Both the position numbers and the translations under genes were made by a program. The notes beneath the pieces are model-generated. The model made no database searches and was not told the DNA's origin. It saw only the letters and a list, made by a program, of their open reading frames with translations. Positions 4,245-28,294 of a stretch of DNA of 37,730 bases are shown here, in pieces (within the stretch, counting starts at the first letter, position 1; every line of letters starts with the position of its first letter). The stretch spans positions 1 to 37,730 of the forward strand of contig JAFCEA010000004.1 of NCBI GenBank assembly GCA_017609385.1, written 5' to 3'. The stretch is from Candidatus Woesearchaeota archaeon. GTDB taxonomy: Archaea; Nanobdellota; Nanobdellia; Woesearchaeales; CG1-02-33-12.

Positions 4245-4370
4245 GCCGCTGTAGCTCAGCCTGGTTAGAGCGCTACGCTCATATGTATTGAGCGATGAGA
4301 GCTTTGCTCGATGATTAACTCATCTAACTGAGGTACGTAGAGGTCACGGGCTCAAATCCCGCCAGCGGCA
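4245..4370 (+). tRNA. tRNA-Met(CAT), elongator-like, with ~51-nt anticodon-loop intron (about 4284-4334, position 37/38)
   Basis: Acceptor GCCGCTG/CAGCGGC, anticodon stem CTACG/CGTAG with CTCATA interrupted by hairpin-rich insert, T-arm CGGGCTCAAATCCCG. Confidence 0.85.
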
Positions 4371-5386: not shown

Positions 5387-5597
5387 TGCCCGGTCCGGGA
5401 CTTTCGACCTGATTGCGATTGCAAGCGAATTTAATTGACAGGCCTGATTTTTAATTCAGTTCCTGCCATTTCTTGCGAGCGTAGCGAGCGAGTCCAGCTT
5501 TATGCTGGACATGCGTGCCAGCTGAGCAAACAGCTGTTCGAACCCGAGTCCCGGCCTCGAGAGGGCCGGATGATTGGCCGAACTACACCAACCGGGC
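5387..5597 (-). tRNA. tRNA-Glu(CTC) with ~136-nt intron in the T-loop (5401-5536)
   Basis: Acceptor GCCCGGT/ACCGGGC, anticodon stem CGGCC/GGCCG with loop CTCTCGA, T-stem TCGGG/CCCGG; T-loop TTCGAA interrupted before T60. Confidence 0.85.
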
Positions 5598-5601
5598 AAT
5601 A

Positions 5602-5767
5602 CGCCAGGGCTGGGACTTTCACTAATGGTTGGGCGAACGAAGTGAGCGCGTCCAGCTTTATGCTGGACTTTGCGTATCAAATGAGCGTAACCATTTGTTT
5701 TGAACCCAGATTCCCAAAAGGGACGAGATTTCCAGTCTCGCGCGGTACCAGATTGCGCCACCCTGGC
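5602..5767 (-). tRNA. tRNA-Ser(GGA) with 83-nt intron in the T-loop (5616-5698)
   Basis: Acceptor GCCAGGG/CCCTGGC, G73, anticodon stem CGAGA/TCTCG with loop CTGGAAA, variable arm TCCCTTTTGGGA, T-stem CTGGG/CCCAG; loop TTCAAA|intron|T. Confidence 0.87.
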
Positions 5768-26061: not shown

Positions 26062-26154
26062 CGCCCTGGCCGGGATTTTCAGTATTAAATGCCTTTGAAC
26101 CCGAGTCGAAGCCTCGACAGGGCTTCATGATAAGCCGAACTACACCACCAGGGC
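26062..26154 (-). tRNA. tRNA-Asp(GTC) with 18-nt intron in the T-loop (26076-26093)
   Basis: Acceptor GCCCTGG/CCAGGGC, G73, anticodon stem AAGCC/GGCTT with loop CTGTCGA, T-stem TCGGG/CCCGG; loop TTCAAA[GGCATTTAATACTGAAAA]T. Confidence 0.88.
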
Positions 26155-26361: not shown

Positions 26362-26484
26362 TCCCCGCTGCCGGATTCGAACCAGCAACCTTTCGGTAAC
26401 AGCTGTCTGCATTTCATCCATTCTCACGCGAGATAGTCGGGCAGAATCTACAGCCGAACGCTCTAGCCGTTGAGCTAAGCGGGG
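26362..26484 (-). tRNA. tRNA-Tyr(GTA) with ~48-nt anticodon-loop intron
   Basis: Acceptor CCCCGCT/AGCGGGG, anticodon stem TTCGG/CCGAA, CTGTAG then insert, T-arm GCTGGTTCGAATCCGGC. Confidence 0.86.
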
Positions 26485-28117: not shown

Positions 28118-28294
28118 TGGGGCCGCCGAGACTTCCGAAAATGGTTGCGAGCGAAGCGAGCTCGGTGGGCTTGCTGTTAGGCAATGCCCGCCCTTGCGTA
28201 TCAAATGAGCGTAACCATTTGTTTGAACTCGGGTTACCAGCGTTCCAGGATAACACCCCGGGCTGGAATGATAGCCAAACTACACTACGGCCCC
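28118..28294 (-). tRNA. tRNA-Pro(GGG) with two introns: ~13 nt at 37/38 (28243-28255) and 90 nt in the T-loop (28132-28221)
   Basis: Acceptor GGGGCCG/CGGCCCC, A73, anticodon stem CCAGC/GCTGG, T-stem CCGAG/CTCGG with loop TTCAAA|intron|T. Confidence 0.8.

Follow-up and report, generated by a model that had tools for sequence, protein, structure and literature searches.

Modular hairpin units in T-loop introns of tRNA genes of a Woesearchaeota-type archaeon, a probable family of non-autonomous mobile elements

In the 37,730-nucleotide stretch of DNA analysed here (the window), the introns that interrupt the T-loops of tRNA-Glu, tRNA-Ser and tRNA-Pro carry a small modular unit that recurs in many tRNA genes of the same genome and of its relatives, as well as outside tRNA genes. 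Our preferred explanation, to which we assign a probability of about 0.6, is that the units are non-autonomous mobile hairpins residing in spliceable BHB tRNA introns at position 59/60 and that the introns themselves also move between tRNA genes.

Host genome and genome sample

The genome to which the window belongs, as contig 123, measures 988 kb (0.99 Mb) and is split into 141 contigs. The named relatives that bear the element are Woesearchaeota, Nanoarchaeota or Nanoarchaeia assemblies, which places the host among the Woesearchaeota-type DPANN archaea; G003, whose record is labelled Methanosarcinales, falls in the same genus as these relatives and is probably mislabelled. We compared nine genomes of the host family, including the host's own, and 292 genomes of the order, including those nine, all of which are fragmented metagenome assemblies.

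Interrupted tRNA genes in the window

The introns of the Glu, Ser and Pro tRNAs (E1, E2 and E3; Table 1) measure 83–136 nt, and the spliced T-loops read TTCGAA/T and TTCAAA/T, which corresponds to position 59/60. E1 holds a single unit (hairpin 1, a type-A hairpin 2 and the terminal block) and a 3′ tail with the end AATCAGGTCGAAAG, E2 combines hairpin 1 (CAAATG/CATTTG) with a type-A hairpin 2, the terminal block and the tail AACCATTAGTGAAAG, and E3 joins a hairpin 1 like that of E2 to a type-B hairpin 2 and the terminal block. As the initial annotation had reported, exact blocks are common to E2 and E3 (ACAAATGGTTACGCTCATTTGATACGCAA, 5698-5670 and 28222-28194, minus strand) and to E1 and E2 (GTCCAGCATAAAGCTGGAC, 5510-5492 and 5668-5650, minus strand). 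ARAGORN assigns a wrong isotype to the window copy of tRNA-Pro(GGG) because a second intron is present in its anticodon loop. Module-free anticodon-loop introns also occur in two window tRNAs, at 26362-26484 (minus strand) and 4245-4370 (plus strand).

Table 1. Interrupted tRNA genes, T-loop introns and a free-standing unit in the window
Feature	Position	Strand	Basis or remark
tRNA-Glu(CTC) gene	5387..5597	-	BHB detector; spliced form Glu(ctc) by ARAGORN
tRNA-Glu(CTC) exons	5′ exon 5597-5537; 3′ exon 5400-5387	-	flank intron E1
E1, 136-nt intron at 59/60, tRNA-Glu	5401..5536	-	BHB helix TTCG/CGAA; R1 match 5475-5537, E=2.8e-19
tRNA-Ser(GGA) gene	5602..5767	-	spliced form Ser(gga) by ARAGORN
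tRNA-Ser(GGA) exons	5′ exon 5767-5699; 3′ exon 5615-5602	-	flank intron E2
E2, 83-nt intron at 59/60, tRNA-Ser	5616..5698	-	BHB helix TTCA/TGAA; R1 match 5633-5698, E=1.6e-17
tRNA-Pro(GGG) gene	28118..28294	-	identity from orthologues (ARAGORN, Pro(ggg))
tRNA-Pro(GGG) exons	5′ exon 28294-28222, with anticodon-loop intron; 3′ exon 28131-28118	-	flank intron E3
E3, ~90-nt intron at 59/60, tRNA-Pro	28132..28221	-	R1 match 28147-28222, E=6.5e-10
Free-standing unit adjoining the tRNA-Pro 3′ end, outside any intron	28116-28054	-	R1 match, E=1.4e-17
tRNA-Asp(GTC), module-free 18-nt intron at 59/60	26062..26154; intron 26093-26076	-	BHB helix TTCA/TGAA; spliced form Asp(gtc) by ARAGORN

Architecture of the unit

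The unit follows the body plan hairpin 1, ACGCA linker, hairpin 2 and CGCTCGCTtCGCTCGC block and spans ~62–85 nt, with truncated remnants of 42–49 nt. Hairpin 1 comprises 6 bp closed by the loop TTGCT or GGTTACGCTC, the linker reads RYACGCA, and hairpin 2 is followed by the terminal block CGCTCRCTtCGYTCGC and then AA. This agrees with the general plan proposed in the initial annotation except that hairpin 2 is not of a single kind but falls into four or more sequence types, among them A (GTCCRGCATAAAGCYGGAC), B (GGGCGGGCATTG..CAAGCCCACC), C (AGAGCGACATTCAATTG..CAATTGAAGTCCCTC) and D (AGAGGGTTTGG..CCAAACCCCCTTAG), with a recurrent mismatch and a bulged A in types B and C. The terminal block, which had been described as a near-palindrome, is indeed shared but is a mirror/direct repeat (CGCTCGCT/TCGCTCGC), and we rejected its description as a true DNA palindrome.

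The sequences of the arms vary while their pairing is maintained. Among the arm pairs are CAGCTT/AAGCTG, CAGCTG/CAGCTG, CAAATG/CATTTG, CAACTG/CAGTTG and CAACGG/CCGTTG; when 19 distinct units are placed in an unstructured alignment, 98.4% of the cells are paired and 10 of the 13 hairpin pairs have changed on both sides in a compensatory manner. The covariation score is 0.537 as opposed to 0.183 for shuffles, none of 500 of which (uncorrected for kinship of the sequences) reached the observed score, and slid-register controls fail. The loop GGTTACGCTC and the linker sequence ACGCAA are constant across families of the order. Scans against Rfam returned tRNA and RNase P only, and no match for the unit.

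Splice sites and splicing enzymes

Most of the 95 T-loop introns analysed display a canonical BHB at their exon–intron borders, with a full 4-bp helix and AG^T, although the detector, which requires at least three of four helix pairs and keeps the best-scoring site per 5′ exon, is mildly biased toward paired sites. The T-loop sequence TTCR pairs with the 3′ end of the intron, YGAA, which is followed by AG^T (the 3′ splice site in 87 of the 95). Position 57 is paired with an intron base in 92/95 introns, and the intron base follows the exon: A57 faces T in 48/51 cases, whereas G57 faces C in 32/44 and T in 12 more (Fisher p=3.8e-12). Likewise, three species have C in place of T55 in their tRNA-Pro(CGG), and the intron supplies the matching G (TCCG/CGGA).

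On the intron side, the BHB helix is formed by the 5′ arm of hairpin 1 and the intron tail, whose pairing exceeds that of all 5000 tail shuffles (z=6.7, uncorrected for kinship). This arm can thus pair with two alternative partners, its hairpin counterpart or the tail; RNA folding gives the outer-helix form for the Ser pre-tRNA and the hairpin form for the isolated Lys intron. Removal of the intron restores the cloverleaf, and ARAGORN recognises nearly all spliced sequences.

We detected EndA (PF01974) in 8/9 family genomes as a single alpha-type protein of 184–195 aa with the Tyr, His and Lys residues present, its closest PDB match being the catalytic Nanoarchaeum subunit (3iey_A); a second EndA subunit was looked for and not detected. 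RtcB (PF01139) is encoded in the host genome. We interpret the T-loop introns as canonical BHB introns that should be removable by EndA, the normal tRNA-splicing enzyme: EndA would cut out the intron and RtcB would rejoin the exons. Since the 13 intron-free tRNAs sampled in the host genome are isoacceptors other than those encoded by the interrupted genes, the latter appear to be the only copies, which suggests that they must work.

Copies across the family and the order

A covariance model of the unit body (R1, comprising hairpin 1, linker, hairpin 2 and terminal block; threshold E<=1) finds 20 matches in the host genome, 16 of them in T-loop introns of 14 tRNA genes, two directly 3′ of tRNA genes and two elsewhere (L019, L027). 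In this group of archaea, roughly one tRNA gene in three is interrupted near its end by an intron built from the unit. The unit is present in all nine family genomes: five congeners have 10–17 matches apiece, the two g2 genomes 11 and 15, and G008 (genus g3) a single one. Several tRNAs of G008 have T-loop introns devoid of modules (17 nt in Val, 30 nt in Ile, and one in the Ala gene of the 16S–23S spacer). In the order as a whole, 38/292 genomes have matches, the nine family genomes included. The covariance-model search and the comparison of introns thereby bear out the proposal of a modular family with many copies in the host and its relatives and with exchange of modules.

The initial annotation had also raised the possibility that the elements target the T-loop. 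T-loop preference holds within the host family only, whereas other families of the order use anticodon-loop introns (G073, G268, G058, G219) or the D-loop (G051), in addition to T-loops in G268 (Tyr) and G186 (Gln); some copies are located 3′ of tRNAs, between genes or inside an open reading frame. The concentration of units in T-loops may reflect survival where splicing makes insertion harmless rather than targeting. As TTCRA is available in the T-loop of every tRNA, any tRNA entered by an intron with the 3′ end YGAAAG should be able to splice it out, and T-loops would therefore constitute safe sites.

Units occur in tandem inside the introns of L047, L055 and L066. The hairpin-1/linker/hairpin-2 core is also contained, without the terminal block, in larger repeats of G048 (16 copies), G060 and G084. 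The G048 repeat (L159-L165) is dispersed, multi-hairpin and ~290 bp long with complementary ends (GTAAGTAAAAAGTC/GACTTTTTACTTAC), and further multi-hairpin repeats lie at L166, L167, L170 and L171 (G084) and L168 (G060). No gene was found inside these repeats, and neither of the two sources scanned against Rfam gave a match. We rejected them as a parent element, as inspection by eye of the flanking reading frames in G048, G060 and G084 revealed unrelated genes and no recognised transposase.

Several copies have unusual surroundings. One unit of G005 (L051, 2684-2746) lies antisense within an open frame of 432 codons and reads in frame (SANEVSASSFMPDLRASLARSC). A type-C hairpin 2 (GCGACATTCAACTTCGTTGAAGTCCC) is found antisense just upstream of an open reading frame that by eye resembles ribosomal protein L2, an arrangement kept in five congeners (L075, L078, L079, L080, L076). 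The 3-kb contig L219 (G005 C5) carries two units outside tRNAs, next to frames that by eye resemble a transcriptional regulator and a zinc-ribbon nuclease.

Turnover of introns and modules

In tRNA genes that are otherwise orthologous, replacement affects single modules as well as entire introns from one splice site to the other. With orthologue groups defined by exon sequence, mean intron identity within genus g1 is 0.66 between orthologous and 0.63 between non-orthologous genes, as compared with 0.976 for the adjacent exons. For 38/60 introns the closest relative belongs to a different tRNA, in many cases of another species: the G000 Lys and G001 Ile introns are 96% identical end to end over 81 nt, and the G000 Gly and G005 Glu introns are 94% identical over 96 nt, with the intron base swapped (T/C) to fit A57 or G57. 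Within one genome, the ValTAC and ValGAC introns of G002 match at 0.96. These replacements between tRNA genes are in line with the duplication or mobility across unrelated tRNAs that had been inferred from the window.

Presence, absence and replacement are seen at two orthologous loci. At the Ile locus, the intron measures 20 nt in G000, 81 nt in G001 and 30 nt in G008, so that a 20-nt intron stands opposite an unrelated 81-nt element intron. At the Val(CAC) locus, where the gene surroundings are conserved, G002 has no intron and the introns of G000, G004, G005, G006 and G007 contain differing modules, while G003 (L116, C60) presents an intact tRNA followed by the element and a second tRNA 3′ end (GAAAG-TCCGGGTGGGCCCA). 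Downstream units of other species end in TATGAAAGTTTGAG, reminiscent of an intron terminus whose 3′ exon has decayed. Homology flanking the T-loop insertions extends over ~10–12 nt, and no clear target-site duplications were seen for the units. Judged as MITEs, the tRNA units have no evident terminal inverted repeats or target-site duplication; the ends of the G048 repeat are complementary. A further variation is offered by the tRNA-Lys of L006 (G000 C80), which has an additional D-loop insertion besides its T-loop intron and may contain two introns at non-anticodon positions.

Candidate mechanisms and alternative explanations

Under the mobile-hairpin reading, spread would take place at two levels: units would be inserted or recombine with one another, and entire introns would transpose or be gene-converted between T-loops. 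Part of the mosaic could stem from gene conversion between introns that share modules. A more far-reaching version, which we advance tentatively, is that the units belong to a kind of mobile element not described before and suited to tRNA splicing, whose own half of the BHB (YGAAAG) would pair with the universal T-loop TTCR, so that it could enter any tRNA and be spliced at once; it would spread as a complete intron, possibly through excised (circular) intron RNA that is reinserted and copied into DNA.

Transposition is nonetheless our interpretation of patterns that homologous recombination might also produce. Old T-loop introns could have been homogenised, with no present transposition, by gene conversion among tRNA genes sharing the T-arm and modules, the mosaics being conversion tracts. 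Module junctions that fall in shared sequence (e.g., the H1b/H1a fusions in L021 and L035), the closeness of the two G002 Val introns and the module-free T-loop introns of G008 and tRNA-Asp all fit such a scenario. We nevertheless consider it rather unlikely as the full account, since many best matches involve a different tRNA in a different species, the Ile and Val(CAC) loci differ by unrelated or missing introns, the flanking homology is short and units reside at unrelated sites too. Chance similarity, low complexity or an assembly artefact has a negligible probability: the assemblies are fragmented, but the shared 19-mer (<=2 mismatches) has 8 genome matches and its reversed control pattern none, the window contains the terminal block 4 times where shuffled sequence averages 0.00, R1 E-values reach 1e-19, the nine genomes were assembled independently, and covariation is seen. 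The control patterns and shuffles thus refute it.

Two hairpins, a constant linker, many small copies and the mismatch and bulged A of hairpin-2 types B and C, which recall HUH substrates, would also suit REP- or IS200/IS605-like palindromic units moved as single-stranded DNA by a host Y1 (HUH) transposase, the partner suggested in the initial annotation. Y1_Tnp genes are indeed present in 6/9 family genomes (7 matches), but they belong to ordinary IS200-like elements with other end hairpins, no module lies near or at the ends of the seven matches, and the three genomes with no detectable Y1 carry 10, 11 and 15 units. Neither a GTAG nor a CGTC tag adjoins the unit hairpins (alignment A3), the ends of the Y1 elements compared differ from those of the unit, which speaks against an IS200/IS605-derived PATE, and Pfam revealed no partner gene among the ten window reading frames examined. 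Such mobilisation is in our view improbable. Two IMG/VR scans for a viral origin, and a plasmid search with the larger G048 repeat, gave no match. Slightly less probable still is that host selection maintains the intron body as a functional (regulatory or guide) RNA, its copies being paralogues in a convenient transcription unit. The strong conservation of the structure from family to family within the order, constant loop and linker included, and the occurrence of the core in the larger repeats of G048, G084 and G060 would agree with a function, whereas the fast turnover of modules at orthologous loci, the tandem and truncated copies, the copy inside an open reading frame and the missing Rfam match argue against it.

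Comparison with known systems

Transposition of tRNA introns has been reported for Thermoproteales in 2010 work, with the mechanism described as unknown, and the summary in PMC4090602 mentions very similar BHB introns with unrelated bodies in different isodecoder tRNAs and lists 59/60 among the known non-canonical intron positions. The near-identical introns in different isotypes described here resemble that case; as far as this summary goes, our case differs in its Woesearchaeota-type DPANN host, in the dominance of one position and in bodies assembled from hairpin modules, which are found outside tRNA genes and within larger repeats as well. What is new relative to known tRNA intron transposition is that a dispersed hairpin element makes up the intron body, that the host belongs to a different major group of archaea and that the introns are concentrated at a single position. 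For Caldiarchaeum, tRNA intron gain via a mobile element has been proposed (PMC3293823); both cases tie mobile DNA to intron gain and show duplicated tRNA pieces by the gene, as in the doubled 3′ end at Val(CAC) of G003, but an integrase-type element at a single locus is involved there, and a small hairpin unit in many tRNAs with no integrase here. Mitochondrial double-hairpin elements and GC clusters of fungi and others (PMC4478555, PMC2800124) are likewise short, GC-rich, gene-free mobile hairpin repeats in an AT-rich genome, although the unit here is housed in a BHB intron and contributes through its end to the splice site. In the openly accessible literature that we searched, we found no paper describing a tRNA-intron hairpin element or non-canonical tRNA introns in DPANN archaea, and only a group I intron paper for tRNA introns and Woesearchaeota.

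How archaeal tRNA introns are gained is an open question, and no element was pinned down when transposition was proposed for Thermoproteales. In the present case the sequence that probably moves can be delimited, consists of modules and is still undergoing turnover between sister species, and the same tRNA genes in empty, minimal and filled states offer a natural case for the study of intron gain. They also yield a testable rule, by which one half of the splice site comes from the T-loop and the other from the element, and point to hairpin repeats for which essential RNA genes would serve as safe sites where the genome is very small.

Rickettsia palindromic elements are reported to be read in frame within open reading frames, as is one unit of G005. 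Like them and like REP/BIME (PMC2817692, PMC3733652), the units are small palindromic repeats; unlike REP/BIME, they have no GTAG or CGTC tag and no linked RAYT, number ~20 copies and are concentrated in tRNA introns.
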